Below are positions 38 through 17,383 of a DNA stretch of 64,000 nt, piece by piece; within the stretch, counting starts at the first letter, position 1; each line of letters opens with the position of its first letter. Source of the DNA: Sphingopyxis alaskensis RB2256. Lineage in GTDB: Bacteria > Pseudomonadota > Alphaproteobacteria > Sphingomonadales > Sphingomonadaceae. Below the pieces are notes generated by a model. That model was not told the origin of the DNA and did no database searches. It was given only the letters and a program-made list of their open reading frames with translations. The stretch is taken from NCBI RefSeq assembly GCF_000013985.1, contig NC_008048.1:744001-808000 (forward strand), given 5' to 3'. The translations under genes and the position numbers were made by a program.

Positions 38-1084
38 ATGAAAAAGCTCGGGTTTCTGGCCGCCGGACTGTTTTCGCTTTTCGCGCAAGCGGCCGACGCG
101 AGCGAGCCGCTTTTCGTCCCGGTTCTTACGGTTGATTTTCCCGACCCGTTCATATTGCAGAACGGCAACGAATTTCTGGCCTACGCCACGAACGCCACGG
201 GTGACCGCGCCAATGTCCAGATGGCGCGATCAACCAACCTTGTCGACTGGGTCCAGATTTCGGACGGCAGCAAATTGCACGACGCCATGCCGACAATGCC
301 CGACTGGGCACGCTCAGGATTTACATGGGCGCCCGAAGTGTTGAAAACCGACGCAGGTTTTGTGCTGCATTTTACCGCGCGGGACAAAAGGAGTGACCTT
401 CAATGTTTGGGGGCCGCATTCAGCGCCAACCCTCTGGGCCCGTTTGTCTCGACGGCGAAAGAGCCGCTTGTGTGCCAGACCGACTTGGGCGGCACGATCG
501 ACTCCCACGCCTTTCGCGACGACGACGGGCAGTTATATCTTTACTACAAGAATGACGGCAACAACCCGCAGTTCGGAAAGCCGACCGACATCTACGTCCA
601 GCGGCTTACCGCCGATGGGCTTAACGTTACGGGCGAAGCCGTCAGGCTGCTGCGAAACGATACGCCCTGGGAGGCGCATGTCATCGAAGCGCCGACGATG
701 GTTCGGAAAGATGGAAGCTACACACTTTTCTTTTCGGCCAATCATTTTGGCTGGGAACCGAACCAGCGCCTGTCCCCCTATGCGGTTGGCTATGCCACAT
801 GCGAGGGCCCGATGGGCCCCTGCACCGATGCACCCAACAACCCGATCCTGAACAGCTTTCATGACAAAAGGGCAGGCTGTTTAAGCGGTCCGGGTCATCA
901 GTCGGTGTTCGATGTGGGTGATCGTTCGTTTGTGTCGTTTCACGCGTGGGCGGCCACCAGCGGTTGCCGCAAGTTTGATAACAAACGTTATATGTATATC
1001 GCGCCGCTGCTGTGGGGGGATGGCAAGCCGCAGCTCGGCGTCAGCCTGAGATCGCCTCCGGTGCAAGGCAAGCGCGCGAAATAA
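38..1084 (+). CDS. Secreted GH43-family glycoside hydrolase
   Basis: A 348-residue protein with an N-terminal signal peptide (about residues 1-20), so probably periplasmic or exported. The five-bladed-propeller GH43 hallmarks are in order: D36 in a PDPF motif (catalytic base), FTWAPE at 95-100, D155 in IDSH (pKa modulator), and E217 in IEAP (catalytic acid). GH43 enzymes are mostly arabinofuranosidases, arabinanases, xylosidases or galactanases. The galactose catabolic genes nearby suggest arabinogalactan or galactan side-chain trimming, but the substrate cannot be read from sequence. An AAGGA ribosome-binding sequence precedes the ATG. The 3' end overlaps the convergent halogenase-like gene by 44 nt. 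Family is secure; specificity is not. Confidence 0.88.
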   Translation: MKKLGFLAAGLFSLFAQAADASEPLFVPVLTVDFPDPFILQNGNEFLAYATNATGDRANVQMARSTNLVDWVQISDGSKLHDAMPTMPDWARSGFTWAPEVLKTDAGFVLHFTARDKRSDLQCLGAAFSANPLGPFVSTAKEPLVCQTDLGGTIDSHAFRDDDGQLYLYYKNDGNNPQFGKPTDIYVQRLTADGLNVTGEAVRLLRNDTPWEAHVIEAPTMVRKDGSYTLFFSANHFGWEPNQRLSPYAVGYATCEGPMGPCTDAPNNPILNSFHDKRAGCLSGPGHQSVFDVGDRSFVSFHAWAATSGCRKFDNKRYMYIAPLLWGDGKPQLGVSLRSPPVQGKRAK

Positions 1085-2638: not shown

Positions 2639-5395
2639 TCAGAACCGAAACCGGACCCCACCCGACAATACCGACTCCTCAAACCGGGTTACCATCGGAA
2701 AAATCTCCGGGTCGCTTGGAATGCCACCCGGATAATTGATCCGAACGATGTCGGACTGGAATGGGTTGTCGAGGATATTGGTCCAGTCGAAAAATACGGT
2801 GAAATTGTCCGTAAAGGCGTAGCTGCTCGACAAATCCAGTCGCGATACCGAGTTGCCTCGACCTTGCAGCGTGAAGAAGCCATCGCGCTCGGCGCGATCC
2901 GCTTCGGGGAAGCTGCTGCGGTAATTATAGGCCAGGCGCACAGAGAGCCCGCCACGCTCGTACAAGCCAACGAGATTATATGTCCATTTCGACACATCGG
3001 GGATTCGTGTCCGCAATGTGGCCGCATTGGGCGCTCCCGGCCCTGCCACGCAATCCGCATTGGCGGTCGTGGGACAGAAGAAACCGAAGTCCGCCTTGGC
3101 GTCGAGATAAGTGACGTTCGCCTGCGCTCCCAATCCGCTCAGCGCGCCGGGCAGAAAATCGAAGAAGCCTGAAATCTGCGCCTCGACACCCTTGATCCGC
3201 GCATTGCGTGTGTTGACCGGTCCCGAAATGACCAGAGTGCGGCCGGTTTCAGGGTCTGGCTCGGGAAATTCGAAGGCGCGATTGGCAATGAAGCCCTGCA
3301 TATCGCGGCGAAATACGCCGATCGAGGCGAATCCGGTCCGCGAGAAATAATATTCGAGGCTTGCGTCATAATTGTCGGAGTCGAGCGGTTTCAGGAACGG
3401 GTTCCCGCCCGACCCGGTGCGAATGCAGTCGGTCTGGCCCGGGGCGCAAGGCGTTGCGGGCGAAAGCCTGAGCGCCGGATTGAGCTGCGCGAAGCTTGGC
3501 CGGGTGCGCGTTTGCGTAAAGGCGAAGCGCGCCTGCACCTCGGGTGAAAATTGAACCCGCAGGTTGGCGCTCGGCAGCCAGTCGGTATAGGCATTTTTGA
3601 AGTTGACGGGGACGGGCCCCGCTGTGGTGAAAAGCGTGCCGGAGGTTTTCGTTTCGGTGCGGACGGCGCGCAGGCCGATCTGACCGTCGATCGTCGTTTC
3701 TCCCAGCGCGAGTTCGTAATTGGCACTGACATAACCGGCGTAGGATTTTTCGTTTATGTCGAACGTTCTGCCAGCATCTATTGGGGGACCGTCAACCGAA
3801 CCAGCGCCGGTAAGGTCGATGTTGAACTGGCGAAGTTCGATCAGGTTATCGTGCACGCTGGCAAATGTCGGGCCAAACCAGCTGACCGGGAAGGGCGCAT
3901 TCTTGTCACCACGGAAACCGCGGGGCTGAAGCACATAATCGAGCGGTACGGCGCTAATCGGAATGCCGCGGTCGCGCAGGTTCCAGTAAAAGTCGCCCGC
4001 CCGCGCGGACGCGTCGCGGTCGACGAAGCGAACGCCCCAGTGGAGCGCGGGAATGAAACTGATACCGGTCGGCTCATACTGAAAATCCAGCCGTGCCTGC
4101 CAGTCGTCACCGCTTGCGGTCAGATGATCTTCGTAGAAACCCCGGTAGTTGTAGATACCGGGATTGGTTGGATCGATCCCTCGAACCTGGAAGGTCAGTC
4201 CGGAACCACCCGGCTTGCCGGTGAACCAGTCGACCGAGTAATCATTAGTATTGATCTCGTAATCAACACTTTCGGTCCGGAGATCGAATGTACTGTCGGT
4301 GCGGGCGACATCAGCGGTGATCCGCAGCGGCCCCACATCCCAGCGACCGCCGACGGCGAACTGGTACGTGTTCGTGTCGCGCTTGGTCGCGCCCTGGAAA
4401 CCCCACGTCTGATTGCCGCCACAGCATGCCGTTGGCCGATTGACGGTACCGCTGATGATCTGGTTACCATCGAGGACGATATTCTCGTAAGACGCGCCGC
4501 CCCAGAGCGGCTGTGCCCACATCCGGTCGGTCGCCCGTTCGCGAAAGCCTTGCCAAAGACCTTCGACATAGATTTCGAGGTCGGGCGAGGGACGCCACTG
4601 GAGGGCGCCATTTATCGAGGGTCGCCATCTCTCCGCTTCGGCATACTGGATTTCAGGCCAGTCAGGCGAACGCGCCCCGGCGAGGTCGGCAATGAAGAAG
4701 CCGTGACGCCGCACCGAGTCACGATAGTGCATGCGTGTGTAGGAGAAATTGATCAAAGCCCCGATCTCGCCCTCGCCGACGTCCCAGCGATCTGAAAGAA
4801 GCAGCTGGGCATTGGGCTCGAGATCGCGAGACTTATCCGGATATACGCCCCATACCGAGCCTGCAATTTCGGAGTCGGCGAAATCGAAAGGCCGTCGTGA
4901 GCGCACGTTGACCAAACCGGCGATGCCCGGCTCGACAAGCTCGGCACTCGATGTCTTGAAAACGTCGATCGCACTTATCCCGCCCGCCGGGAAATCCTGC
5001 AGCGCGACCGACCGTGTTTCGGCGGTGAAGATCTCGCGACCATTATAGGTTGTCGTGTAGTTGAAGCGGTCAAGTCCGCGAACGAGCACGCGATTGGCCT
5101 CGCCGCCCCGGCGCTCCACCTGGACACCTGGAATGCGCGCGGCGGTGTCAGAAACTGCGATATCCGGCAATTTGCCAATATCTTCGGCCACGATCGAGTC
5201 GACAATTTTGTCGGAGCGTTGCTTTGTGCTCTGCGCCGACTGAAGCGAAGCGCGGAAACCGGTGACGACGATAGCGTCCCCTTCGCTGTCGGCAGAATCC
5301 TGCACGGGAGGGGCGTCCTGCGCCGAGGCGACAGTCGCACACAAAGACATCACTGCCAGCGATGCCGTGCAGCGAGCGATTGTCCTGTAGCGCAT
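2639..5395 (-). CDS. TonB-dependent outer-membrane receptor
   Basis: A 918-residue outer-membrane transporter expected to import an oligosaccharide with energy from TonB-ExbBD. It has a signal peptide ending near SAQ (residue 26), a TonB-box-like AIVVTGFRASL (41-51), a plug domain (KIVDSIVAEDIGKLPD, then PGVQVERRGG and RVLVRGL) and a long beta-barrel ending in aromatic RFRF, as barrel proteins do. The start at 5395 was preferred over an upstream in-frame ATG at 5506 because GGGGGAGAAG lies just before it and signal-peptide-like sequence follows at once. A good promoter with a candidate operator in its spacer lies about 80-110 nt upstream. The ligand is inferred from context to be a galactose-containing glycan. 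Confidence 0.93.
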   Translation of the reverse strand: MRYRTIARCTASLAVMSLCATVASAQDAPPVQDSADSEGDAIVVTGFRASLQSAQSTKQRSDKIVDSIVAEDIGKLPDIAVSDTAARIPGVQVERRGGEANRVLVRGLDRFNYTTTYNGREIFTAETRSVALQDFPAGGISAIDVFKTSSAELVEPGIAGLVNVRSRRPFDFADSEIAGSVWGVYPDKSRDLEPNAQLLLSDRWDVGEGEIGALINFSYTRMHYRDSVRRHGFFIADLAGARSPDWPEIQYAEAERWRPSINGALQWRPSPDLEIYVEGLWQGFRERATDRMWAQPLWGGASYENIVLDGNQIISGTVNRPTACCGGNQTWGFQGATKRDTNTYQFAVGGRWDVGPLRITADVARTDSTFDLRTESVDYEINTNDYSVDWFTGKPGGSGLTFQVRGIDPTNPGIYNYRGFYEDHLTASGDDWQARLDFQYEPTGISFIPALHWGVRFVDRDASARAGDFYWNLRDRGIPISAVPLDYVLQPRGFRGDKNAPFPVSWFGPTFASVHDNLIELRQFNIDLTGAGSVDGPPIDAGRTFDINEKSYAGYVSANYELALGETTIDGQIGLRAVRTETKTSGTLFTTAGPVPVNFKNAYTDWLPSANLRVQFSPEVQARFAFTQTRTRPSFAQLNPALRLSPATPCAPGQTDCIRTGSGGNPFLKPLDSDNYDASLEYYFSRTGFASIGVFRRDMQGFIANRAFEFPEPDPETGRTLVISGPVNTRNARIKGVEAQISGFFDFLPGALSGLGAQANVTYLDAKADFGFFCPTTANADCVAGPGAPNAATLRTRIPDVSKWTYNLVGLYERGGLSVRLAYNYRSSFPEADRAERDGFFTLQGRGNSVSRLDLSSSYAFTDNFTVFFDWTNILDNPFQSDIVRINYPGGIPSDPEIFPMVTRFEESVLSGGVRFRF

Positions 5396-5477
5396 ATATC
5401 TTCTCCCCCAAAAGTTTGGGCCGCATTCCCGGCTCTTGCGAAGGCTATAATCGATCGATCCGCCTATCAGCAAGTCA

Positions 5478-5506
5478 TTTGTATGATTTATATTATCCAA
5501 GGTCAA
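5478..5506 (-). promoter_or_regulatory. Promoter of the TonB receptor with candidate operator in the spacer
   Basis: On the minus strand, TTGACC (5501-5506) and TACAAA (5478-5483) are separated by exactly 17 nt. The spacer contains ATTTATATTATC (plus-strand 5486-5497), a 12-mer found identically at 15033-15044 and with small changes at 6700-6711 and 15926-15937. A protein bound there would block RNA polymerase. The GntR-family gene at 9326 is the obvious candidate. Promoter and operator are inferred from sequence only. Confidence 0.6.
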
Positions 5507-5521
5507 TTTTTGAGGCGACTG

Positions 5522-6658
5522 TCACCATTCTGCCACGCTGCCATCTGCATGCCGCCAGATTGGATTCCGCCAGCGATGACGGTTTTTGGCGGCTTCGCGC
5601 ACTTTTATCTCGTCGATTTCAATGCCGAGGCCCGGTCCTTCCGGAATAGCCAGGAAGCCCTCTTCTGGCGTCAGAACGTCCGGATTTGCGCAAAAGCTGA
5701 GCAGGTCGTGCGTTTCATTATAGTGGATGCCCAACGACATTTCCTGGATGATGACGTTGGGCGTGCAGGCCGCGAGCTGAAGGCATGCTCCGAGCGCAAG
5801 AGGACCAAGCGGGCAATGCGGGGCCACCGCCACGTCGTAAGACTCGGCCATTGCCGCAATCTTGCGGCATTCGGTCAAACCACCGGCATGGCTCAGGTCG
5901 GGCTGGATGATATCGACAGCGCCACTCGCGAGGAAAGGTTTGAAGTCCCAGCGCGAATAAAGGCGTTCGCCCACCGCGATCGGGGTACTCACAAGTCCGG
6001 CCAGCTGCGAGAGCGCCTCGGGATTCTCGGATAATATGGGCTCCTCGATGAACAGAAGTCCAAGCGGTTCGAGCAGTTTTGCGAGCTGCTTGGCCATGGG
6101 TCTGTGGACCCGACCATGAAAATCCACGCCCACGTCGAGCCCTTCATTCTGGGCCGCACGAACACGCTCCACCACGTCATCGAGTTTGGGCGCGGTCAGA
6201 TAATCGATCTCGGACGTGGCGTTCATTTTTATTGCCGTGAATCCCTGTTGTCGCCGAGCCTTGGCCGCGTTGGCGATATCATCGGGTCGATCGCCGCCGA
6301 TCCACGCATATGCGCGCACCTTGTCGCGAACCTTGCCGCCAAGCATCTCCCACGCCGGAAGCCCGTAATGTCGTCCCTTTAGATCCCACAAAGCCTGATC
6401 AAGGCCAGCGAGCGCCGACATCAGGACCGGCCCACCCCGATAAAAGCCTCCCCGATACGCGACTTGCCAGATATCCTCTATTTTCCGGGGATCCGCGCCG
6501 ATGAATCGATCCCGCATCGCGTCAAGTGCGCCGTCCACGGCTTCGGCATGGCCTTCCAGGCTGGCTTCGCCCCATCCGATTGTGCCGTTGTCGGCTTCAA
6601 TTCGTACAAACAGCCAGCGTGGCGGGACATGAAATGTTTCTATTCGGGCAATTTTCAT
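5522..6658 (-). CDS. dgoD: D-galactonate dehydratase
   Basis: A 378-residue enolase-superfamily enzyme that dehydrates D-galactonate to 2-keto-3-deoxygalactonate. From memory it matches E. coli DgoD over its whole length, including the N-terminal MKI start, GFYRGGP, VGGDRP-like IGGDRP, the DFHGRVHRP segment (metal ligand D179 and catalytic H185), EEP (E205), GER (E231), the APHCPLGP segment (H281) and the C-terminal WRNPxWRH...VAEW. This is the third step of the De Ley-Doudoroff pathway. It is transcribed away from dgoK across an intergenic region holding a candidate operator, and it lies upstream of the TonB receptor, which has its own promoter. Confidence 0.94.
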   Translation of the reverse strand: MKIARIETFHVPPRWLFVRIEADNGTIGWGEASLEGHAEAVDGALDAMRDRFIGADPRKIEDIWQVAYRGGFYRGGPVLMSALAGLDQALWDLKGRHYGLPAWEMLGGKVRDKVRAYAWIGGDRPDDIANAAKARRQQGFTAIKMNATSEIDYLTAPKLDDVVERVRAAQNEGLDVGVDFHGRVHRPMAKQLAKLLEPLGLLFIEEPILSENPEALSQLAGLVSTPIAVGERLYSRWDFKPFLASGAVDIIQPDLSHAGGLTECRKIAAMAESYDVAVAPHCPLGPLALGACLQLAACTPNVIIQEMSLGIHYNETHDLLSFCANPDVLTPEEGFLAIPEGPGLGIEIDEIKVREAAKNRHRWRNPIWRHADGSVAEW

Positions 6659-6693
6659 AAAGACGGGCTCGCTTCCATCACGACAAACGCGGA

Positions 6694-6722
6694 TTGCACA
6701 TTTATATGATAATACATATAGC
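6694..6722 (+). promoter_or_regulatory. Candidate dgoK promoter/operator, also facing dgoD
   Basis: TTGCAC (6694-6699) and TATAGC (6717-6722) are 17 nt apart, and the spacer begins with ATTTATATGATA (6700-6711), a copy of the motif shared by four intergenic regions of the locus. The same stretch holds a perfect inverted repeat, TATATG (6703-6708) and CATATA (6715-6720), around six bases. Its position between divergent dgoD and dgoK would let one bound repressor control both. The promoter hexamers are only fair matches. Confidence 0.5.
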
Positions 6723-6802
6723 GCAATAGATATCGGGATTTCGTGCCAGCGACGGCGGCGACATCGAACGCGATCTCTAACGAATGAAATGGAGCAGGTC
6801 GC

Positions 6803-7702
6803 TTGGACTGGAATGAAAAATATATCGCGGTCGACTGGGGGACGACCAACAGGCGCGCGTGGCTCGTCGACCCTAGCGGCAATGTCTCTGCCCGGTTCGC
6901 GGACAATTTGGGGTTAATGGCGGTTCCACCTGGCGGCTTCGAGGCCGCCGCGGCCGATATCCGGCAACAACTCGGACCCTGGCCGATGTTGCTCGCGGGG
7001 ATGGTGGGTTCGGATCAGGGCTGGCAGCAGGCGCCTTATGTCGCCTGTCCGGCGAGCGCGAAGATGCTCGCCGACAATATCGTCTGGATCGACGACAATC
7101 GCAGCGGAATCGTGCCGGGTGTCTGCCAGACTTCCGGCCATCCGGACGTGATGCGGGGCGAAGAGGTGCAGGCAATCGGTGCTGTGAACGGCAGCCTTGT
7201 GTCGCCGGACGCTTACATCTGTCATCCGGGAACCCATGCGAAATGGATCCGGTTGGAGCGTGGGCAAATAGCCGGATTCACGACGATGATGACCGGCGAG
7301 TTATTCAATCTGCTCCGGACGGGCAGCATATTGTCACCGCAAATGCAGTCGGAGGCCGTAGACGGGGATCCGTTTCGAGCAGGCTTGGACGCAGCGTTCA
7401 GCGGAGCATCGCTGTCGTCGGCCCTCTTCACCGTGCGCGCGCAATATCTGTTGTCGAATAGGCCGGGCGACGGCGCCTCCTATGCCAGCGGGCTGCTTAT
7501 TGGCAGTGACGTAAGAGCCGGTCTGGCTCAGGCCAGCCCCGGCGAAGAAATCGCCCTCATCGGGCGTGCCGACCTGACCCGTCTCTATGCTCTGGCCATC
7601 GAATCGGCAGGACATGGATACCGGCTCATCGATGGCGATCGGGCCTTCCTGGCCGGTATCGCGGCCATTGTCCCGTATCTTGAAAAGGAGCGAATTTCGT
7701 GA
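6803..7702 (+). CDS. dgoK: 2-dehydro-3-deoxygalactonokinase
   Basis: A 299-residue sugar kinase that phosphorylates KDGal on O6 with ATP. The DgoK signature is clear: an N-terminal phosphate-binding VDWGTTNRRAW, LAGMVGSDQGW, MRGEEVQ and CHPGTHAKW. The start is a TTG at 6803, placed 9 nt after GGAG; nearby ATGs at 6784 and 6789 are out of frame. It heads a tightly packed five-gene operon (kinase, aldolase, dehydrogenase, regulator, lactonase), and its GTGA stop overlaps the aldolase start. Expression is probably set by the operator region at 6694-6722. Confidence 0.93.
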   Translation: MDWNEKYIAVDWGTTNRRAWLVDPSGNVSARFADNLGLMAVPPGGFEAAAADIRQQLGPWPMLLAGMVGSDQGWQQAPYVACPASAKMLADNIVWIDDNRSGIVPGVCQTSGHPDVMRGEEVQAIGAVNGSLVSPDAYICHPGTHAKWIRLERGQIAGFTTMMTGELFNLLRTGSILSPQMQSEAVDGDPFRAGLDAAFSGASLSSALFTVRAQYLLSNRPGDGASYASGLLIGSDVRAGLAQASPGEEIALIGRADLTRLYALAIESAGHGYRLIDGDRAFLAGIAAIVPYLEKERIS

Positions 7703-8343
7703 GCCCAGCCGTCGAAGCATTCCATCGTTACCGCGTTGAATGCCCCATCATTGCCATTTTGCGCGGCATTGCGCCGGACGAGGTTGTTCGGGTCGGCGAG
7801 GCCCTCCTTTCCGCTGGAATCCGGATTATCGAGATACCCTTGAATTCGCCCGATCCGTTCGAGAGCATTCGACGCCTTTCAAAATCAGTGGGTGGCCAAG
7901 GTCTGGTGGGTGCGGGAACGGTGCTGGACGTCGATCAGGTCGCGCGTGTGGAGGAAGCAGGGGGGCGGCTCGTCGTGTCACCCAACACCGATGCGGCCGT
8001 GATCAAAAAGACTGTTGTTGCCGGACTGGTGTCCGTCCCCGGTTATTTCACGCCGTCGGAAGCGTTTGCGGCCATTGCCGCTGGCGCGCACGGCATCAAA
8101 TTATTTCCGGCCGAGGCTGCCACGCCCGCGGTGGTGAAGGCGCAGCGTGCGGTATTGCCGAACGATGTGCCGCTGCTCGTCGTCGGCGGCGTGACCGCGG
8201 ACGACTTTGGCCGATGGCTGGCGGCAGGCGCTGACGGCTTTGGCCTTGGCGGTGCTCTCTATCGCGCGGGCGACACAGTGACTCAGGTTCATCAACGCGC
8301 GGCCCGGTTTGTGGCTACGCTCAAACCGGGGGCGCGCCAGTGA
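7699..8343 (+). CDS. dgoA: 2-dehydro-3-deoxy-6-phosphogalactonate aldolase
   Basis: A 214-residue KDPG/KDPGal-type class I aldolase that splits KDPGal into pyruvate and glyceraldehyde 3-phosphate, the last step of the pathway. The features are PIIAILRG near the N terminus, EIPLNSP, GAGTVL, SPNT, VPGYFTPSEAF, and the Schiff-base lysine in GIKLFPAE (K130 by my count). The GTG start at 7699 lies within the kinase stop (GTGA overlap) and is preceded by AAAAGGAG eight bases upstream, so the pair is translationally coupled. KDPG and KDPGal aldolases are hard to separate by sequence; the neighbours favour the galactose isomer. Confidence 0.92.
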   Translation: MSPAVEAFHRYRVECPIIAILRGIAPDEVVRVGEALLSAGIRIIEIPLNSPDPFESIRRLSKSVGGQGLVGAGTVLDVDQVARVEEAGGRLVVSPNTDAAVIKKTVVAGLVSVPGYFTPSEAFAAIAAGAHGIKLFPAEAATPAVVKAQRAVLPNDVPLLVVGGVTADDFGRWLAAGADGFGLGGALYRAGDTVTQVHQRAARFVATLKPGARQ

Positions 8344-9260
8344 CCCTCCGCATTGCGCTGATCGGCTTCGGCAAAATCGCGGAAGACCAGCATCTCCCGG
8401 CCATCGCTGCCAACCCCGATTTCGAACTCGCGGCGATCGTTTCGCTCAACCGTCCCAGCCATATTCGATGTCCCGTCTTTTCCACGGTTGGCGACATGTT
8501 TGCGGGCCTGCCAGGGGGCATCGACGCCGTCGCCATTTGCACCCCGCCAGTTCCGCGCTTTGCAATTGCGTGCGAGGTCATCACTGCGGGTCTCCCCGTG
8601 CTGTTCGAAAAGCCGCCCACCGCCACCCTGGGGGAACTCGACTATCTGATTGCGCTTGCCCGCTTGCGAAACGTTCCGATCTTTACAGCTTGGCATTCGC
8701 AATATGCAGCCGGCGTGCCGGTCGCCGCGCGGGCCCTGAAAGGGGAGGCCGTTACAAGTCTTACAATGCTGTGGCGCGAAGATGTCCGCAAATATCATCC
8801 CGGACAGCAATGGATATGGCAGCCAGGAGGGTTTGGCGTGTTCGATCCCGCGATCAATGGTTTTTCGATCCTCAACAACATCCTGGACGAGCCGCTCCTG
8901 GTCAACCGGGTATCGATGCTGTTCCCGGCAAACCGGCAAACGCCCATTTCGGCCGAAGTTCTTTTCCATGGAGACGATCGCAAAGCCATACTGGACTGGC
9001 GTGGCGGGGATGAAGATGAATGGAAGATCCAGATTGAAACGGCGTCGGGCAAGTCGGTTCGCCTGATGGAAGGGGGCGCTCAACTCGAGATCGACGGCGC
9101 GCCGCGAAGTTTGCCGCCGCGCAGCGAATATCGCGCCATCTATGAGGATTTCGCCGACGTCGTGCGTCGCCGGTGCAGCAAGATCGATCGGGATCCGCTG
9201 CGTATCGTTGCTGACTGCTTTCTGGCCGCCGAACGAAATGCGGGGGACGATTTTGCCTGA
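8340..9260 (+). CDS. Gfo/Idh/MocA-family sugar dehydrogenase, probably D-galactose 1-dehydrogenase
   Basis: A 306-residue NAD(P)-dependent oxidoreductase with an N-terminal Rossmann motif (IALIGFGKIAEDQHLPAI), CTPP, and EKPPTATLGEL, which carries the conserved catalytic lysine region of the family. Its length and features resemble Pseudomonas D-galactose dehydrogenase and Azospirillum L-arabinose 1-dehydrogenase, related enzymes that can accept either sugar. It would oxidise galactose to galactonolactone, the first pathway step. It starts with GTG overlapping the aldolase stop by 4 nt. No arabonate dehydratase or 2-keto-3-deoxyarabinonate gene lies here, so galactose is the better-supported substrate. 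Confidence 0.85.
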   Translation: MTLRIALIGFGKIAEDQHLPAIAANPDFELAAIVSLNRPSHIRCPVFSTVGDMFAGLPGGIDAVAICTPPVPRFAIACEVITAGLPVLFEKPPTATLGELDYLIALARLRNVPIFTAWHSQYAAGVPVAARALKGEAVTSLTMLWREDVRKYHPGQQWIWQPGGFGVFDPAINGFSILNNILDEPLLVNRVSMLFPANRQTPISAEVLFHGDDRKAILDWRGGDEDEWKIQIETASGKSVRLMEGGAQLEIDGAPRSLPPRSEYRAIYEDFADVVRRRCSKIDRDPLRIVADCFLAAERNAGDDFA

Positions 9261-9325
9261 AATTGGCCCTCCCTTTCAATGTTTTCGGTTGTATGCATGT
9301 CCGCGAAGAGCTGGAGGGCAGTTGA

Positions 9326-10051
9326 GTGACTGAGCAAACGGGATTGAACACGTCGTCGGCGATGGGTCGAAACCTGACCTACGGCATGCTGGATCTGCTG
9401 GGTAAAGCGATCGTAACCGGCCAATATGACGACAGGGTCTTTCCGACCGAAGCCGAACTGGCGAAGCAATATGACGTGAGCCGTTCGGTCGTTCGCGAAG
9501 CGGTGAAGATGCTGGGTGCAAAAGGACTGCTCACGGCGCGGCCGCGCAAGGGAACGACAATCCAGTCGACCGACCGCTGGAACCTGTTCGATATCGATGT
9601 GCTGCGCTGGCTGCTGGACCGGAAGTTCTCGCTCAGCCTCTTGCGGCAATTCTCGGAATTGCGCGAGGCCATTGAACCGGCTGCTGCGGCGCTCGCGTCG
9701 AGCGCGCATTCTCCGGAAGGTCTTGCGGCAATCGAGGCCGGTTACGCGCGAATGGAAGCCGCGGAGCGGAACGAAGACGACCCTCTGGAGGCGGACATCG
9801 CGTTCCATGTCGCGATTTTGCAAGCTTCGGCCAATCCCTTCTACGCGCAGTTTCGCGATGTCGTCACCACGGCGCTTCGAACGTCGATCCGGTTCACCAA
9901 CCGGTTCAAAGGGCGAACCGCAAGTCTGCCGCAGCACAAAGCCGTGCTTGACGCGATCGCCAATCGCAGACCGTCCGAAGCCAAGGCGGCCATGGCAGCG
10001 CTGATTGCAGATGTCATGGTGCTGATCGCCGAAGCCGAAAGAAACGGATAG
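9326..10051 (+). CDS. FadR-subfamily GntR transcriptional regulator (DgoR-like)
   Basis: A 241-residue regulator with an N-terminal winged helix (PTEAELAKQYDVSRSVVREAVKMLGAKGLL, about residues 41-70, in segments) and a C-terminal FCD ligand-binding domain with the expected metal-site pattern (DIAFHVAIL and a later QHKAVLDAI). In E. coli the equivalent protein, DgoR, represses dgo genes and is relieved by galactonate. Here the gene sits inside the operon it probably controls. The likely site is the ATTTATAT(T/G)AT motif at 5486, 6700, 15033 and 15926. The GTG start at 9326 follows GGAGGG at a 7-nt distance and is preferred over a later in-frame ATG at 9362. Confidence 0.9.
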   Translation: MTEQTGLNTSSAMGRNLTYGMLDLLGKAIVTGQYDDRVFPTEAELAKQYDVSRSVVREAVKMLGAKGLLTARPRKGTTIQSTDRWNLFDIDVLRWLLDRKFSLSLLRQFSELREAIEPAAAALASSAHSPEGLAAIEAGYARMEAAERNEDDPLEADIAFHVAILQASANPFYAQFRDVVTTALRTSIRFTNRFKGRTASLPQHKAVLDAIANRRPSEAKAAMAALIADVMVLIAEAERNG

Positions 10052-10906
10052 ATGCGCTGCGCTGCCAATGTGGGCGCCATTCTGGGCGAGGGCCCTTGCT
10101 GGGTTGTGCGCGAGCAAAGCCTTTTTTGGACTGATATCAACCAACCCTGTCTTTTCCGCTGGAACGAAGCCGAGGGCGTCACGCGCCTGCCGATGACGGA
10201 GCGAATTTGTTCGATCGTTCCGCGCGCCTCCGGCGGATATTTTGGCGCTGGATATAATGGCTTGCTCGCGATCGACGCGAAATTTGTCGCAACGCCCGTC
10301 GGCAATCCCGAAGCTGATCTGACCGATAACCGCTTCAACGACGGCAAGGTTGACCGCGCCGGCCGCTTCTGGGCCGGGACGATGGACAGCAAGGAAGTGC
10401 ATCCCAGCGGCACGTTATATCGGGTCGATTTCGATCTCAGCTGGAAAGCAATCGACACCGGCTATCGCGTCACCAATGGCCCGGCATTCAGCGTTGATGG
10501 CCGGACGATGTATCATACCGATAGCGCGATGCAGAAAGTTTACCGCTTTGCGATCGATGCCGAGGGCAATGCAGCCGAACGCGAGACATTCCTGCAGTTC
10601 AGTCATCACGACGGATATCCTGACGGCATGACGATTGACGCCGAGGATTGTCTCTGGATCGCCTTTTGGGATGGCTGGTGTATCCGTCGGTTCTCGCCAG
10701 ATGGCAAACTTCTCGCCGAGATTCCGGTTCCTGTGGCGAGGCCCACGAGCGTTGCCTTCGGTGGCGCGCAGCTCGACCAGATCTTTATAAGCACGGCATC
10801 GCGGGATCTGACCGAAGCAGAGCTGGCGGGTCAGGCGAACGCAGGCGGACTATTTACCGTTCGTCCGGGTGTCCGGGGCGTTGCCGAACTACCGTTCGCC
10901 GGTTGA
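10052..10906 (+). CDS. SMP-30/gluconolactonase-family aldonolactonase
   Basis: A 284-residue six-bladed-propeller lactonase. Expected metal and active-site positions are visible: E in GEGPCW near the N terminus, N in FNDGKVD, GRFWAGTM, N in VTNGPAFS, YHTDS and DGMTID. It would hydrolyse galactono-1,4-lactone (or arabinolactone) to the aldonate used by DgoD. Its ATG directly abuts the stop of the GntR gene. Its last 53 nt overlap the convergent gene for the ABC binding protein. Family assignment is firm and the lactone follows from context. Confidence 0.88.
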   Translation: MRCAANVGAILGEGPCWVVREQSLFWTDINQPCLFRWNEAEGVTRLPMTERICSIVPRASGGYFGAGYNGLLAIDAKFVATPVGNPEADLTDNRFNDGKVDRAGRFWAGTMDSKEVHPSGTLYRVDFDLSWKAIDTGYRVTNGPAFSVDGRTMYHTDSAMQKVYRFAIDAEGNAAERETFLQFSHHDGYPDGMTIDAEDCLWIAFWDGWCIRRFSPDGKLLAEIPVPVARPTSVAFGGAQLDQIFISTASRDLTEAELAGQANAGGLFTVRPGVRGVAELPFAG

Positions 10907-12215
10907 TCTCCTGCATTTCCGCCAGGAGTTCGTTTACCCGTCGCTCGGCATGGGCCAGTGCAACGCTCACCGGCTTGGTTCCCGCCACCGCCGCTTCGAG
11001 TTCCTCTCCGATCAGCCCTTGGATTGCGGACTGGCGCTGCACGAAATCGGGCAATTGCTGGCCGGTCGCGGCCATTGCCGCAATGTCCCTGCGATGCGGT
11101 TGTGACGTAAACGAAGGCGAAACGAGCACGTCGCGAAATGCGGGAAGATGACCGGTGCGAACCCAGTCACCGTTATATTTGGCGATGAAAGCGAGAAAAC
11201 GAGCAATTGCACGGCGTTCAGCAACGCTCCGCTCGTCAGCAGGCACCACCCAGGCATGTCCATCGACAAACGCCGCATTCTTTCCCCAAAGCCGCGGGAA
11301 CGGAGCCACGGCATAGCCGTCGAGCCGCGAACCAGGCGCCTTGGACGCTTCATGATAGGGTCCGATCATCCAGGTTCCGGTCGGGAAGATGCCTCCCTCG
11401 CCGTTGAGGAAACTGGCTGTCGCTCCGGGAAAATCCTGGGATGTCGTCAGCTTCTCGGCGTTGAGTGCGCGATACATTTCGACGATCTCGCGCGCCTGCG
11501 GCGTGTTGAGTCGGATATGACGGCTGTCGGGAAAAATGACAGCGTCCTGCGCGAGCAAATAGGTGTAGAGATTTGCTACGAGATAGTCGGGTGCGCTCAC
11601 CTGCGCCTGAATGAGATAAGGCTTGCCGGTAGCCCGTTTGAATTTGCGCGCCTGATCGAGCAGTTCCGCAGGCGTATTGGGCAGTACCGGCCTGCCATCG
11701 GCCATAAGGCCGGCCTTTGCCATCAAGCCAGTGTTGATGTGCCACAGCCGCCCAATAGTGTCCCATGGCAGCGCATAATATCTGCCGTTTTTCATTGCGC
11801 CGCGTTGCGCCGCCGGGGTGAGGGTGCCCGTGTCTATTTTGGCCTCGGCCAAGAGGTCGTCCATCGGTGCGAGCAATCCCCTGGCCTGGTAATCGGAGAT
11901 TACGGATTGGTGCATCGTCACCAGATCGGGCGGATCGCCCGCGGCAATCTGGGCGGCCAACTGCGGATAACCCGGCCAGGCAACGACGTTGACCTTTACA
12001 TGGATGTCCGGGTTTTCGATCACGAACCGGTTGAGAATCGTGGTCAATATCCCGCATTCGGTTTCGGCCTTGGCGACGTCGGTGGCGGTTCCGTAGATTG
12101 CGCCGCATTCGCCGAAAAAACGCTGGATGACCAACGTCGGCCGGTCATCGGTCTGGCCGCAACTACCGGTCAGAAGCACTGCAAGCGCGGCCAGAACGAT
12201 ATTCGCGCGCCTCAC
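10854..12215 (-). CDS. ABC transporter extracellular sugar-binding lipoprotein
   Basis: A family-1 solute-binding protein of 453 residues. The start is placed at GTG 12215, which overlaps the upstream permease stop (GTGA). The first residues then form a lipoprotein signal ending LLTGSCG, a lipobox-like site with the cysteine near residue 20. A long in-frame upstream extension to 12413 would lie inside the permease gene and is rejected. Typical features follow: IAAGDPPDLVTMH, YYALPWD, GGIFPTGTWMIGP and a C-terminal helical region. It would deliver sugar or oligosaccharide to the two permeases upstream. It is last in the four-gene transporter operon. Confidence 0.87.
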   Translation of the reverse strand: MRRANIVLAALAVLLTGSCGQTDDRPTLVIQRFFGECGAIYGTATDVAKAETECGILTTILNRFVIENPDIHVKVNVVAWPGYPQLAAQIAAGDPPDLVTMHQSVISDYQARGLLAPMDDLLAEAKIDTGTLTPAAQRGAMKNGRYYALPWDTIGRLWHINTGLMAKAGLMADGRPVLPNTPAELLDQARKFKRATGKPYLIQAQVSAPDYLVANLYTYLLAQDAVIFPDSRHIRLNTPQAREIVEMYRALNAEKLTTSQDFPGATASFLNGEGGIFPTGTWMIGPYHEASKAPGSRLDGYAVAPFPRLWGKNAAFVDGHAWVVPADERSVAERRAIARFLAFIAKYNGDWVRTGHLPAFRDVLVSPSFTSQPHRRDIAAMAATGQQLPDFVQRQSAIQGLIGEELEAAVAGTKPVSVALAHAERRVNELLAEMQEINRRTVVRQRPGHPDER

Positions 12216-13048
12216 CGGGTCGCCGCCCCGGCCATCGCGCCGACAATCTGTTTCTGAAAAATGATGTAAACGATCAGGATCGGGATGGATGCAAAAACGG
12301 CTTGCGCCATCAGAAAGCCCAGCCCGCTGGTTTGCGCATAGTTCATCTGCGCCGATGCCAACCCGACGGTCAGCGTGTATTTGTCGCTGGTGGTGGCGGA
12401 GATGAGCGGCCACCAGTAATCGTTCCAGGATCCGAGGAAGGTGAAGACGCCCAGCGTCGCCTGTGCCGGAAACGACAGAGGCAGCAGAACCTTCCAGAAA
12501 ATCGCGATCCGCGAAGCCCCGTCGAGCATTGCCGCCTCATCGAGATCCCTGGGAATCGCACGGAAATACTGGGTCATGAAAAACACCCCGAAGGGCGCGG
12601 CCAGCCCTGGAAAAATCAGGCCGGGATAGCTGTTGTGCCAACCGAGCGCCGCAAATAACTGGTGGCGCGGAAGGATCACCGCCTGTTCGGGGATGGCAAG
12701 CCCCAGCAACACAAATATGAACAGCGTCCGGCGAAAGGGAAAGTCGAGGCGCGCAAAGCCGTACCCGGCCAGCGAGCAAAGCATCAATACGCCGACAGTT
12801 GTGCCAGTCGAAACGATCAGGCTGTTGAGCAACCAGCGCGGCACATCAGACCCGGTCATTATGTCGCGGTAATTGTCGAGCGTGTAGGGCAGGGACAGGG
12901 CGGATGCACTGTCGCGCATGAGATCGCTGTTGCTCTTGAGCGACAGCAGCAGCGTCCAAACCAGCGGCGCAACCATGATGGCTGCGCCCAGCAACACGCC
13001 GACCAAAGCGGGCCATGGGAGGCGATTGCGATCGTTCGCCGCGCTCAT
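12212..13048 (-). CDS. Carbohydrate ABC transporter permease (MalG/UgpE type)
   Basis: A 278-residue inner-membrane permease with six predicted hydrophobic spans, the first at about residues 13-33. The coupling loop carries the EAA motif of sugar permeases (DEAAMLDGASRIAIFWKVLLPLS, about residues 171-193, in segments). It pairs with the permease at 13045-13917 to form the channel. Its ATG overlaps the upstream stop by 4 nt (ATGA) and its stop overlaps the start of the binding-protein gene, so translation is coupled along the operon. Confidence 0.92.
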   Translation of the reverse strand: MSAANDRNRLPWPALVGVLLGAAIMVAPLVWTLLLSLKSNSDLMRDSASALSLPYTLDNYRDIMTGSDVPRWLLNSLIVSTGTTVGVLMLCSLAGYGFARLDFPFRRTLFIFVLLGLAIPEQAVILPRHQLFAALGWHNSYPGLIFPGLAAPFGVFFMTQYFRAIPRDLDEAAMLDGASRIAIFWKVLLPLSFPAQATLGVFTFLGSWNDYWWPLISATTSDKYTLTVGLASAQMNYAQTSGLGFLMAQAVFASIPILIVYIIFQKQIVGAMAGAATR

Positions 13049-13917
13049 CGAGACGCCCCTTCATCGCGCGTGCCGAACCAATATTGTCCCAGTGTCAGCG
13101 CGAGAACCAGCACGAACAGGACTTCGGCGGCGGCGACGGCGTAGCCAAGTTCCCATCGGCCGAACGCAATTTCATAGATGTAGAGAACGATCGGCCGCGA
13201 ACTGCCGCTTGGTCCGCCCGATGTAAGCAACTGCGCCTGCCCGAATATCTGTAGCTGGGCAGCGGTCTGCAACATGACCACCAAAATCGTGGTGCGGCGA
13301 AGCGAGGGAAGCGTGATCCGGCGAAACACGGTCCATCGACTGGCGCGATCCAGCGCCGCCGCCTCGTACATGTCCTGCGGAATCTGCTGCAAGCCTGCCA
13401 GAAACAACATCATTGGCAGCCCCAGGCCCCACCAGATCGTGGTGAGCGCGATCGCAGGGACGACCAGATCGGGGTGACTGAGAAATGGCAGCGGCTCCAT
13501 CCCCAATGCGGTTAGCAGCTTCGCGATCAACCCGGCGTCCGGGGTCAGGACAAAGCGCCAGATCAGGGTGACGATCGTGACCGAAAGCACCGACGAGGAG
13601 AAGAACAACCCCCGAAATATTGCCGCCGCACGCGTTGCCCGGTTCAGCGCCAGCGCAAGCATCAAGGTGATGATCGTCAGCGCCGGCACGATCATCAGGG
13701 CCAGCAGGAATGTCGTTCCCATCGCCTGGTAGAAGACCGGGTCGCCGAAGAGGCGGGCGTAGTTATCCAATCCGATCCATTGGCGCGCCCCGAAAAGATC
13801 GGCGCGGTGGAAACTGATCCACGCGCCCATGATAAAGGGGACGATCAGCAGGAAGCTGTACGCCGCCACGAACGGCAGGACGAAGGCATAACCCCCGAGC
13901 CGGTCGCGCGCCGTCAT
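13045..13917 (-). CDS. Carbohydrate ABC transporter permease (MalF/UgpA type)
   Basis: A 290-residue inner-membrane permease with six hydrophobic segments and the EAA loop (YEAAALDRASRWTVFRRITLPSL, in segments). The early RADLFGARQWIGLDNY stretch is typical of UgpA-like sugar permeases, where an N-terminal periplasmic loop follows the first helix. It starts with ATG inside the ATPase stop (ATGA), second in the operon order ATPase, permease, permease, binding protein. Substrate is inferred from the galactose genes on either side. Confidence 0.92.
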   Translation of the reverse strand: MTARDRLGGYAFVLPFVAAYSFLLIVPFIMGAWISFHRADLFGARQWIGLDNYARLFGDPVFYQAMGTTFLLALMIVPALTIITLMLALALNRATRAAAIFRGLFFSSSVLSVTIVTLIWRFVLTPDAGLIAKLLTALGMEPLPFLSHPDLVVPAIALTTIWWGLGLPMMLFLAGLQQIPQDMYEAAALDRASRWTVFRRITLPSLRRTTILVVMLQTAAQLQIFGQAQLLTSGGPSGSSRPIVLYIYEIAFGRWELGYAVAAAEVLFVLVLALTLGQYWFGTRDEGASR

Positions 13918-15011
13918 GCAGGCGTGCCTGCATGATGACCCGTGCCATCCTGTGCGAACAGATGCGCACTGGCGCCATCGATCAGCAGGCCGATGCGGTC
14001 GCCCATCCGTATCATGCTGTCGCCCCGATCGACGGCAGTGATTTCCGACCCGTCGGCGAGCTGTGCGTAAACAAGGGTGCGGTCGCCCAGCCGTTCAACG
14101 ATGATCGCCACGCCGTCGAGGGTGCCGGTGCCAGGCGCGGAAATGGTCACGGATTCGGGCCGCAGTCCCAGCTCGATATTTTGATCGTCACGAATAGCGT
14201 CACAGGCCACCAGGGTCGCAACCTTCGTGCCGTCTGCAAACCGGACGATGGCAGTCTCGCCGCTGGTCGGGTCAAGCGAAACCGGCAGCATGGTCATCGC
14301 AGGCGAGCCGACGAAGCGCGCGACGAAGCGGTTGGCGGGGCGGCTGTAAATGTCCATCGGCGTGCCGATCTGCTGGATTCTCCGGTCGTTCATCACCACA
14401 ATACGATCAGCCAGCGTCATCGCTTCGGCCTGATCGTGCGTCACCATGATCACGGACGCATCGACCCGCTGGCGCAACTGGGAAAGCTCGACGCGCGTGC
14501 GGTTGCGAAGCGCGGCGTCAAGATTGGACAGCGGCTCGTCGAGAAGGAACAGCTTGGGCGCTTTGACAATAGCCCGGCCAATTGCCACCCGCTGACGCTG
14601 GCCGCCCGAAAGCTGGCCAGGCTTTCGGTCGAGCAACCGGTCGATCTCGAGCGTTGCCGCGACCGTTTCAATTCGGTCGGTTATTTCATTTGCCGGCACC
14701 TTGGCGTTGCGAAGCCCGAACGCCATATTCTCGCGTACGGTCATATGCGGATACAGCGCATATTGCTGGAAAACGAGCGCCACACCGCGATCACCCGGAG
14801 CCAGCCTGTCGATCCGCGTGCCATCGAGCCACACTTCGCCGCTATCCGCTGTTTCCAATCCGGCGATGATGCGCAGCAAAGTCGATTTGCCGCTGCCCGA
14901 CGGTCCCAGAAATGCAATGAACTCCTTGCGCTCCATTGCAAGCGACACGCCGTCGAGCACATGAATGCTACCGTAGCTTTTGCACACGTCGATCAGCGAA
15001 AGACAGGTCAA
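13914..15011 (-). CDS. ABC transporter ATP-binding protein (UgpC/MalK type)
   Basis: A 365-residue ATPase of the CUT1 sugar-importer class. It shows Walker A GPSGSGKST (36-44), LSGGQRQR signature (from 134), Walker B FLLDEP (155-160), the H-loop VMVTHDQAEAMTL and a C-terminal regulatory TOBE-like domain from about residue 240. The start is TTG at 15011, five bases after GGGGAG; no better ATG is nearby. It is the first gene of the transporter operon. A candidate operator (15033-15044) lies between a TTGACG-type promoter and the start codon. Confidence 0.92.
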   Translation of the reverse strand: MTCLSLIDVCKSYGSIHVLDGVSLAMERKEFIAFLGPSGSGKSTLLRIIAGLETADSGEVWLDGTRIDRLAPGDRGVALVFQQYALYPHMTVRENMAFGLRNAKVPANEITDRIETVAATLEIDRLLDRKPGQLSGGQRQRVAIGRAIVKAPKLFLLDEPLSNLDAALRNRTRVELSQLRQRVDASVIMVTHDQAEAMTLADRIVVMNDRRIQQIGTPMDIYSRPANRFVARFVGSPAMTMLPVSLDPTSGETAIVRFADGTKVATLVACDAIRDDQNIELGLRPESVTISAPGTGTLDGVAIIVERLGDRTLVYAQLADGSEITAVDRGDSMIRMGDRIGLLIDGASAHLFAQDGTGHHAGTPA

Positions 15012-15032
15012 ATCCGCTCCCCAATTTATCGT

Positions 15033-15044
15033 ATTTATATTATC
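15033..15044 (+). promoter_or_regulatory. Candidate operator upstream of the ABC transporter operon
   Basis: ATTTATATTATC, identical to the 12-mer in the TonB receptor promoter spacer (5486-5497). On the minus strand a possible promoter, TTGACG, lies about 20 nt upstream, and the motif overlaps or follows its TAATAG -10-like element, a position suited to repression. It is one of four copies in the locus, each in an intergenic region and none seen inside genes. Confidence 0.5.
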
Positions 15045-15068
15045 TATTATCGAGCGTAGATATGTTCG

Positions 15069-15923
15069 TCAATAACCGTCGACCACCGGTTCGATCAATC
15101 CGTCGATGACATGGTATTGGCGTACGCAACCAATCTGCTCGACCACGCGTCCATTGAACCGGCCTTTCAAGACTGGCGGCAAACTTGCTTCGAAGGCGCG
15201 GGTCATCTGCAAATCATGGTGAGCGGAATTGGCAGCGTCAGGACCATCGACGCCGATGACGAGCACCGGCCTCGCTTTGTCGGATCGGTTTGCCGTCCCG
15301 CGATGAATGGTGAGTGCCGAACGGGCTGAAATCGTTCCGCGCTGGGCGAGTTTCGCGACCCCAAGTCTTTCATAACGCGGCCAGCGAGAACGATCGGGAA
15401 ACATGCCGTGCGGGCATTCGTCGATTGCATCCCACTGCGTTCCGGGCGCGATCTCGAAAGGGCCCATATCCGGTGTCGTGTCGACCGCAGTGAGATTGAA
15501 CGCGAGCGACGTTATGCGGCGTCCTCTGCTGGTTGCCTCGGGGGATCTGAAATCGCGATGCCATGGTTGCATCGTCGCGCCAGGAAAGGGGATGTCAAAT
15601 CCTACTTCGACTATTCGCCATTCGGGACCGAGTATCGCCTCATTCACAGCCAGGAACCAGGGGTGAGACACGATGTCGGCGAAGGCGTCGATTCGTTCCG
15701 GCGCGACCTCGACATACCATCTTTCCGGCCCCCGTGGCAGGATCCCATGATCCGTCTGCCGCGCTTCGGCATATAGCAGCTCTATGCTCGCGCGCATCTT
15801 GTCGACCAGCGCAACCTCATAGGCATTGGTCAACGAAATATAGCCATCGCCATATATGCCCGCCATTATCTCAGCGGTTTCATAAAGCGGGTCCTCGGTC
15901 ACCCAGCGCCTCCCTTTCGCCAT
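15069..15923 (-). CDS. Phytanoyl-CoA-dioxygenase-family Fe(II)/2-oxoglutarate oxygenase
   Basis: A 284-residue PhyH-family protein. The facial-triad candidates are H122 and D124 in WHRD and a distal H207, with a downstream arginine (R218) for 2-oxoglutarate. Such enzymes hydroxylate small molecules and the substrate cannot be deduced. It lies between the transporter operon and a divergent GH43 gene and shares the locus operator motif, so it is probably part of the regulon, perhaps modifying an unusual sugar or substituent. The ATG at 15923 has no ribosome-binding sequence and directly follows the operator motif. Either the mRNA is near-leaderless or translation begins at the ATG at 15866 (residue 20). 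Confidence 0.82.
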   Translation of the reverse strand: MAKGRRWVTEDPLYETAEIMAGIYGDGYISLTNAYEVALVDKMRASIELLYAEARQTDHGILPRGPERWYVEVAPERIDAFADIVSHPWFLAVNEAILGPEWRIVEVGFDIPFPGATMQPWHRDFRSPEATSRGRRITSLAFNLTAVDTTPDMGPFEIAPGTQWDAIDECPHGMFPDRSRWPRYERLGVAKLAQRGTISARSALTIHRGTANRSDKARPVLVIGVDGPDAANSAHHDLQMTRAFEASLPPVLKGRFNGRVVEQIGCVRQYHVIDGLIEPVVDGY

Positions 15924-15925
15924 TT

Positions 15926-15937
15926 AATCATATAAAT
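15926..15937 (-). promoter_or_regulatory. Candidate operator between PhyH-type gene and cytosolic GH43 gene
   Basis: On the minus strand this reads ATTTATATGATT, one to two bases different from the copies at 5486, 6700 and 15033. It ends two bases before the annotated start of the PhyH-type gene and lies about 50 nt upstream of the divergent GH43 gene. It could control both. The copy is in opposite orientation to the other three. Confidence 0.45.
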
Positions 15938-15985: not shown

Positions 15986-17383
15986 ATGAAATCGAATCAG
16001 CAAATTGTCGTTGATGCCGTGGCCGAAGGCGATGGCGTCAGGCTTTCGATCACAGCCGATGGGCGGACACGTGAATATACGATCGCAGGCAGCAGCCACG
16101 CGGACTACCAGGCATTTTTTTCCCGGCTGGCAGACGATATCGGCTCACGCGCTCCGCATGTGTTTGACGGGCCTGGCGTAGAAACGACCGACTCGGGCGT
16201 TTGGAAACCGCTGATCACCCAGAATCTGAGCCCGCTGACCAGCGCCGGCTATGGTGACCCTGCGGTGCTCAAGACGGACGAAGGTTATTACCTTGTCGCC
16301 ACGTCCAACGATGCCCCCGACGCCTTTCCGATTCTGTTCAGTGCCGATCTCGAACATTGGGAGCATAAGGGATTTGTATTTGCCGAAGGGCATGCGCCCG
16401 AATGGACTGCGCATGGTCGTCATGTCGGGGATTATTGGGCACCCGAAATGGCCAGAGTGGGCGATGAATACTGGCTGGTGTATACCGCTCGCCAGCACAA
16501 CAATGCTCTTGCGATCGGAATGGCCAAAAGTAATCATCCTGAAGGTCCGTGGCGCGACCTCGGGCGACCTCTTATTGCCGGTTTTGCTTATAACACCACA
16601 GGAATGACCCAAGACGGCACACAGCCGGTCATGAGCGGCGGCGTCATCGACAGCCATATCTTCATCGACCGAAATGGCGACCGCTACCTGTACTGGAAAA
16701 GGGACACCAACGGCGTCTGGCCGCGTCCGTTAGCCGGATTGATCGGCAAACGACCCGAACTGATCGAGCAGCTGTTTTCTGCGCCGGCAGACCGCAAAAC
16801 GGCGGCCGTCGCCGCCGCTCTGCTTCCCTTCGCCCAGACACGGCGCCCGATGGAACGTTTCTTCTTCATGCAGCCGTTGATTGAGGCGGTGATTGATAAC
16901 TGGCGTCATGTGAAGGCGACGCTCGCAAGCTATCCCGATGCATCACTGATTTGTGAGGCCATGAGCACACCAATATACGCTCAGCGAATGTCGGAAACCG
17001 GGGAGTTGGTCGGCGACAAGACCGTTGTTCTTGTGAACGATCTTGACTGGGAGGGGCACCTGATCGAGGGTCCGTGGGTTACGTTGCAGGAAAATCGATA
17101 CTGGCTTTTTTACGCCGGAAACGATTTCGGCACACCAGCCTATGGCATCGGTGTCGCGGTTGCCGACCACCCGCTGGGACCATATGAGAAGCAGCCGGAG
17201 CCGTTGCTCAGGTCCAGACCCGATTGGTGGGCGCCGGGGCACGCATCCGTTGCTTCGGGACTCGACGGTAAGCCGCAGTTGTTCTTCCATGCGTTTTTTC
17301 CGAACACGGGCGGATACAACACTTTCAGGGCGCTATTGACGGCAGAATTAACATTCGACCATAAAAAGGTAAGCTTGAAGTAA
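15986..17383 (+). CDS. GH43-like glycoside hydrolase without signal peptide
   Basis: A 465-residue protein with all three GH43 acidic residues: D91 in YGDP, D222 in VIDSH and E361 in IEGPW, plus YWAPE (150-154). It lacks a signal peptide and has about 85 extra residues before the first propeller motif. A mainly helical stretch of about 80 residues (roughly 245-325) is inserted between the second and third catalytic motifs, where ordinary GH43 enzymes have a short loop. It probably acts in the cytosol on imported oligosaccharides. It is transcribed alone, divergently from the PhyH-type gene, with a shared operator candidate between them. The 294 bases after its stop hold no recognisable gene. 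Confidence 0.82.

Follow-up and report, generated by a model that had tools for sequence, protein, structure and literature searches.

Which regulator, if any, holds together the galactose genes of Sphingopyxis alaskensis RB2256? The locus lies in the window analyzed here, the 64,000-nucleotide stretch from position 744,001 to 808,000 of contig NC_008048.1 (positions below are those of the window unless prefixed). An initial annotation of this DNA had proposed that an AT-rich string, found in four intergenic regions, ties the genes of the locus into one regulon under the GntR-type protein encoded at 9326. We find that the string belongs to a 15-bp palindrome which is very probably the operator of this local GntR/FCD protein, a DgoR-like repressor that galactonate or a nearby pathway acid would release. 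The argument is built on computed properties of the motif, namely its symmetry, conservation, rarity and co-occurrence with the GntR clade, and from these we infer the binding, the sign of regulation, the overlap with promoters and the effector.

Recurrence of an AT-rich palindrome in the galactose cluster

Exact copies of ATTTATAT(T/G)AT (ATTTATATKAT) occur four times in the window, at 5486-5496, 6700-6710 and 15033-15043 on the plus strand and at 15927-15937 on the minus strand. As annotated, they lie before the TonB receptor, between dgoD and dgoK, before the ABC operon and between the PhyH-type and GH43 genes, and the same 12-mer is indeed found at 5486-5497 and 15033-15044. A further copy at 5477 differs at one base, which brings the window to five matches when one mismatch is tolerated. 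The average over 100 dinucleotide shuffles was 0.11 matches, and no shuffle had as many as five. Many copies unrelated to sugar genes would have spoken against a regulon, but five of the six exact copies in the home genome (3.37 Mb, two contigs) fall inside the galactose cluster, and the reversed pattern has no match in the whole genome. The fifth cluster copy lies at C2:743949, 51 bp before the window, in the junction between galM-GH43 and GH43; the four annotated junctions thus stand, as an incomplete set to which this one belongs. The sixth copy is a stray 11-mer at C2:71316 (site C2:71312-71326; L008 5312-5326); it departs from the full palindrome at two positions, and no sugar gene could be recognised in its vicinity.

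The full palindrome emerged from the neighbourhoods of GntR orthologues, in which the cluster genes were mapped and a motif was learned from 257 upstream regions of 43 loci, with the window left out (the duplicates L043, L045, L046 and L047 were dropped, and L052-L062 and L097-L102 left out). This gave a 15-bp inverted repeat, ATTTAT-(A/C)N(G/T)-ATAAAT, with about 112 sites and a fifth position that is A at a frequency of 0.86 and G at 0.14. Its log-likelihood ratio is 892 at width 15 and 901 at width 17, against 28.5 and 23.3 for two sets of mononucleotide shuffles at width 17 (8 expectation-maximization starts, against 25 for the real data). The partly palindromic pattern drawn in the initial annotation, ATnATnTAnATnAT, did not survive, as it matches four places in the genome, two of them outside the cluster, and the conserved symmetry is ATTTAT-N3-ATAAAT. 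Before the TonB receptor the annotated copy at 5486 is exact but scores 12.3 bits, while a better operator (20.6 bits) overlaps it at 5477-5491.

The window, the home-genome counts, the sites beyond the training loci and the dgoK loci in genomes that lack the orthologue are independent of training. In 74 kb of the home genome the top six matches (6700, 15923, -51, 15033, 15024 and 5477; 20.6-24.3 bits) all fall at cluster junctions. The next match, of 15.5 bits, is at 35562, outside the cluster. When the home genome was searched with the learned consensus, a tolerance of one mismatch gave three sites, every one inside the cluster (reversed control, 1); a tolerance of two gave 17, of which six belong to the cluster (reversed control, 7). 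With the site threshold set at 18 bits, the homologous coding sequence (268 kb) is free of sites, and the other 582 kb have 97. Two other search forms were set aside. An exact consensus was too strict over 298 genomes: it missed the home genome altogether and matched in 20 genomes, of which several have control counts nearly as high or higher (e.g., G068 and G233). A sequence-profile model (R1) was insensitive, with a single home-genome match at an E-value of 4.7, and searches with IUPAC patterns were used instead.

Could the copies be chance matches, or shared promoter sequence such as AT-rich -10 regions? Every site is AT-rich and near promoters, and at the PhyH|malK junction the better of the two malK matches is equalled by nine of 1000 dinucleotide shuffles. 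However, over the five junctions the observed score was equalled in 0, 4, 0, 9 and 0 of 1000 shuffles, the orientation of sites relative to genes varies, the reversed pattern is absent from the genome, and matches of at least 18 bits are lacking both from the homologous coding sequence and before operon-internal genes. We consider this explanation extremely improbable.

A partner match at exactly 9 bp is present for 26 of 96 sites, and for at most four at any other offset tested. Since the partners share a half-site, we do not claim a third half-site at 9-bp steps; scored alone, an extra half-site is only slightly favoured (at the expected place for 5 of 192 site ends vs. 0-4 elsewhere, 6-bit threshold). 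Extra boxes are reported in the FadR subfamily (PMC4494728).

Co-occurrence with a clade of GntR proteins

Among 20 window proteins scanned with Pfam, the 241-aa GntR/FCD protein at 9326-10051 is the sole regulator. Orthologues with at least 59% identity are present in 33 of 298 genomes of the family, the home genome included, and a dgoK match accompanies them in 32 of the 33, vs. 50 of the 265 genomes without an orthologue. In Sphingorhabdus contaminans the cluster is shared and the regulator is 86% identical. When one mismatch is allowed, the consensus has 77 sites (control 26) in the 33 orthologue-bearing genomes. In 38 genomes that lack the orthologue, all drawn from genera that also hold a genome with it, there are 26 (control 15). 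Forty-five of the 77 fall beyond the training loci and the home cluster. For fifteen of these outlying sites a homologue of a sugar or TonB gene of the cluster is no more than 4 kb away, vs. none of the 26 (Fisher p 0.0005); for sugar genes alone the counts are 9/45 vs. 0/26 (p 0.02). An instructive case is G225, in which gntR is on another contig and three sites of 20-26 bits stand beside homologues of the TonB receptor, dehydrogenase, aldolase, dgoK, lactonase and GH43 genes (L103).

The dgoK loci offer a further comparison. Among the best 30 dgoK matches, from 82 genomes with a match, a site of at least 18 bits lies within 1.5 kb of dgoK in five of nine genomes with the orthologue and in none of 21 without; four of the five positives are training genomes and the fifth is the home genome, while the 21 negatives are independent. 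In G163, which lacks the orthologue, a 17.3-bit match just under the threshold, TTTTGTAGGACAAAT, stands just before dgoK (L188 1442-1456) and has the classical TTGT-N3-ACAA form. Near GntR orthologues the strict motif was found at 22 of 41 loci (39 in 814 kb), and near GntR proteins of 35-53% identity, several of them with galactose genes, at 2 of 19 (2 in 196 kb); the latter loci were hand-picked (L212 is 53% identical, the others 35-48%) and their stretches are shorter. The contrasts at dgoK loci and around distant GntR proteins indicate that the motif tracks the GntR clade rather than galactose genes.

In an alternative scenario the sites would be operators of another transcription factor encoded elsewhere, with the GntR protein a bystander. 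A palindrome indicates a dimeric binder but not which one, a gene whose translation reads by eye like a TetR regulator lies beyond the GH43 gene upstream of the window, and some distal sites are near no cluster homologue. Against this stand the rarity of the motif at galactose genes without the GntR clade, as just described, its presence before gntR itself in 15 of 44 regions, and the TTRT-N3-AYAA frame, which is that of FadR-subfamily operators. We judge a different factor improbable. The proposal of one regulon under the GntR protein at 9326 is therefore supported by orthologue co-occurrence, sites before gntR and FadR-type geometry, and on this basis the protein is the probable binder of the motif.

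Several observations weigh against this assignment. The orthologue is found in none of the six other genomes of the home genus. For sugar genes alone within 1 kb the comparison is not significant (4/45 vs. 0/26, p 0.29), and 30 of the 45 sites beyond the training loci are near no cluster homologue. The value of 0/26 is itself weakened, since dgoK is matched in only 6 of the 38 genomes compared. In addition, four of the nine genomes with the orthologue show no site near their best dgoK match, and the strict motif is missing from 19 of the 41 orthologue loci.

Site conservation in syntenic relatives

The conservation expected before orthologous genes is present in ten syntenic relatives (L039, L041, L042, L048, L049, L050, L063, L064, L069 and L075); all belong to the training set, and the counts describe conservation rather than independent tests. 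Sites of at least 18 bits precede the TonB receptor in 10/10, dgoK in all nine that keep this gene, malK in 8/10 and the last GH43 gene in 9/10, and occupy the galM|GH43 junction in seven of the eight whose contig reaches there. Over all 257 regions, such sites lie upstream of GH43b (7/8), PhyH (6/7), GH43c (10/11), dgoD (8/11), malK (8/15), dgoK (11/25), galM (8/18), the dehydrogenase (8/18), the TonB receptor (5/20), the lactonase (2/14) and GH43a (1/4), besides gntR as given above. Operon-internal genes in these regions have none: aldolase 0/24, each permease 0/10, binding protein 0/10, halogenase-like gene 0/8. The receptor, transporter and catabolic genes keep their place in the proposed regulon as first outlined, and galM and two further GH43 genes are to be added.

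Relation to known FadR-subfamily operators

Repressors of the FadR subfamily that act on sugar-acid genes through a palindromic operator are a known kind of system. In a similarity search, the best solved relative of the GntR protein is E. coli DgoR (7c7e; E-value 2.9e-30, 108.8 bits); the protein scores above the cut-off of no NCBIfam model. Residues S52, R53, R57, E58 and R72 are invariant in 42 sequences; we take the first four to lie in the recognition helix and R72 in the wing. The equivalents of E. coli DgoR R102, D146, H150 and H195 are equally invariant, and the metal-coordinating and R102 roles of these residues in the E. coli protein are described in PMC7674646. T191 of E. coli DgoR corresponds to Ser200, and W181 falls in an alignment gap; the effector is thus less sure than the operator.

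FadR-subfamily operators are described as palindromes built from TKGT/ACMA boxes, with a spacing of 3 nt for DgoR among others (PMC4494728), and IR1 of E. coli DgoR contains TTGT-AGT-ACAA (PMC12288454). The system described here resembles that of E. coli DgoR in its GntR winged helix with FCD domain, the 3-nt palindrome spacer, the link to dgoK/dgoA/dgoD and the retained metal triad and R102. It differs in its TTAT/ATAA half-sites, in not keeping W181 and T191, and in a regulon that takes in the receptor, the ABC importer, GH43 genes and galM. Likewise, spacing and symmetry agree with the subfamily consensus TKGT-N3-ACMA given in PMC4494728, whereas the GT/AC boxes are mostly AT/AT, an A.T pair standing where G.C is usual. 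The closest earlier example of TTAT boxes is BioR, an alphaproteobacterial member of the FadR subfamily whose site (TTATMKATAA) has the same half-sites flanked by M and K. However, the printed BioR site has a 2-nt spacer and its targets are biotin genes; the 3-nt spacer (ATTTATMNKATAAAT) and the sugar-gene targets found here rule against the motif being that of BioR.

We lean, with some reserve, towards a scenario in which a sphingomonad DgoR-like clade moved its operator from TTGT-N3-ACAA to TTAT-N3-ATAA while keeping its recognition-helix arginines, and governs a galactoside regulon reaching from the outer membrane to catabolism. If so, this would be another FadR-subfamily case, beside BioR, that lacks the usual GT/AC boxes. 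The exchange of A.T for G.C at the most conserved pair of these operators would offer a natural case for studying change of DNA specificity. In the open-access literature (RegPrecise not included) we found no printed description of this operator variant or of the breadth of the regulon in sphingomonads, and the main text of PMC5343134 does not name DgoR.

A proposed regulatory circuit

In the circuit that we put forward, a GntR dimer would sit on ATTTAT-N3-ATAAAT, each winged helix contacting one TTAT half-site. From sites at the head of the transcription units it would block uptake (TonB receptor, ABC importer), glycoside cleavage (three GH43 enzymes) and mutarotation (galM), together with the De Ley-Doudoroff steps of the dehydrogenase, lactonase, dgoD, dgoK and aldolase. 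On arrival of the sugar a pathway acid, most likely D-galactonate, might enter the metal pocket of the FCD domain, and the DNA would be released; being inside the dgoK operon, gntR would also repress itself. A single AT-rich string would in this way lead to a testable regulon of receptor, importer, glycosidases and the De Ley-Doudoroff route in sphingomonads.

As judged by eye, the 6700 site fills the 17-bp spacer of a likely dgoK promoter (TTGCAC 6694-6699, TATAGC 6717-6722), and the receptor site covers TACAAA, 17 bp after TTGACC. This placement in or over likely promoters suits a repressor. In PMC12288454, DgoR and its sugar-acid GntR relatives are likewise described as repressors, which substrates or intermediates release, and D-galactonate is what releases E. 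coli DgoR from DNA. The same regulator and sites might nevertheless follow another logic, with activation of some promoters or an effector other than galactonate, such as 2-keto-3-deoxygalactonate (KDGal), a lactone or L-arabonate. The abstract of PMC7674646 words the effect of galactonate on DgoR binding in the sense opposite to PMC12288454, and the pocket, as noted, is only partly like that of E. coli DgoR. The dehydrogenase is closest to 6jnj/4ew6, which are L-arabinose and D-galactose 1-dehydrogenases, and is equally close to both activities; solved relatives of the GH43 proteins include arabinanases and xylosidases, which do not settle the substrate. The malK sites, moreover, sit immediately before the malK start codon. 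Such a different logic seems to us rather unlikely, though it deserves to be kept in mind, and repression relieved by galactonate or a nearby acid is the reading that we retain. No convincing promoter was seen near the malK sites. A TTGAC before malK common to relatives was rejected as a promoter signal, as in the window it covers the PhyH stop codon.

Organization of the cluster

Across the window start the cluster comprises GH43 and galM (minus strand), GH43 (plus), a tryptophan-halogenase-like gene, the TonB receptor and dgoD (minus), dgoK, aldolase, Gfo/Idh/MocA dehydrogenase, gntR and an SMP-30 lactonase-like gene (plus), the ABC importer and the PhyH-type gene (minus), and a final GH43 gene (plus). 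This gene set presumably corresponds to the De Ley-Doudoroff route. The coordinates are collected in Table 1.

Table 1. Predicted operators and genes of the galactose cluster.
Feature	Position	Strand	Basis and remarks
Predicted operator before TonB receptor, ATAAATCATACAAAT on receptor strand	5477..5491	-	20.6 bits; 4/1000 junction shuffles as good
Weaker match overlapping the 5477 site, holds first annotated copy, ATTTATATTATCCAA	5486..5500	+	12.3 bits; exact 11-mer at 5486
Predicted operator between dgoD and dgoK, ATTTATATGATAATA	6700..6714	+	24.3 bits
Predicted operator before malK, first of two overlapping matches, ATTTATCGTATTTAT	15024..15038	+	21.7 bits
Predicted operator before malK, second overlapping match, third annotated copy, ATTTATATTATCTAT	15033..15047	+	22.3 bits; exact 11-mer
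Predicted operator between PhyH-type gene and GH43, ATTTATATGATTAAA	15923..15937	-	23.9 bits; 0/1000 shuffles as good
Predicted operator galM-GH43 | GH43, ATTTATATGATAAAC	C2:743949-743963, 51 bp before window start		22.8 bits
GH43 gene	38..1084	+	PF04616; operator shared with galM-GH43
TonB-dependent receptor	2639..5395	-	PF00593, PF07715; TIGR01782 above cut-off
dgoD, galactonate dehydratase	5522..6658	-	NF010624, 606 bits vs. cut-off 311
dgoK, KDPG/KDPGal-type aldolase, Gfo/Idh/MocA sugar dehydrogenase	6803..9260	+	PF05035, PF01081, PF01408; operon continues into gntR
GntR/FCD regulator, proposed DgoR-like repressor	9326..10051	+	PF00392 48.5 bits, PF07729 85.1 bits, both above cut-off
SMP-30/gluconolactonase-like gene	10052..10906	+	PF08450
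ABC importer: MalK-type ATPase, two permeases, UgpB-like binding protein	10854..15011	-	PF00005, PF00528; weak UgpB match, below cut-off
PhyH-type dioxygenase gene	15069..15923	-	PF05721
GH43 gene	15986..17383	+	PF04616

The receptor had been listed as an open reading frame at 2639-5506, starting at a TTG upstream of the operator; the in-frame ATG at 5395 is a better start and leaves the operator 82 bp upstream. The whole cluster spans C2:741811-761383. Distant relatives keep the same gene order, and both the GntR gene and dgoK are absent from the six other searched genomes of the genus; this patchy distribution perhaps reflects horizontal transfer.

Finally, a second conserved string, AAAGCGCTTGCCA (AAAGCACTTGCCA in L042), is found about 15-30 bp before the GH43c operator in L042, L048, L049, L050, L064 and L040, and is absent from the window. 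The AGCGCT within it is a palindrome and could be the site of another regulator.

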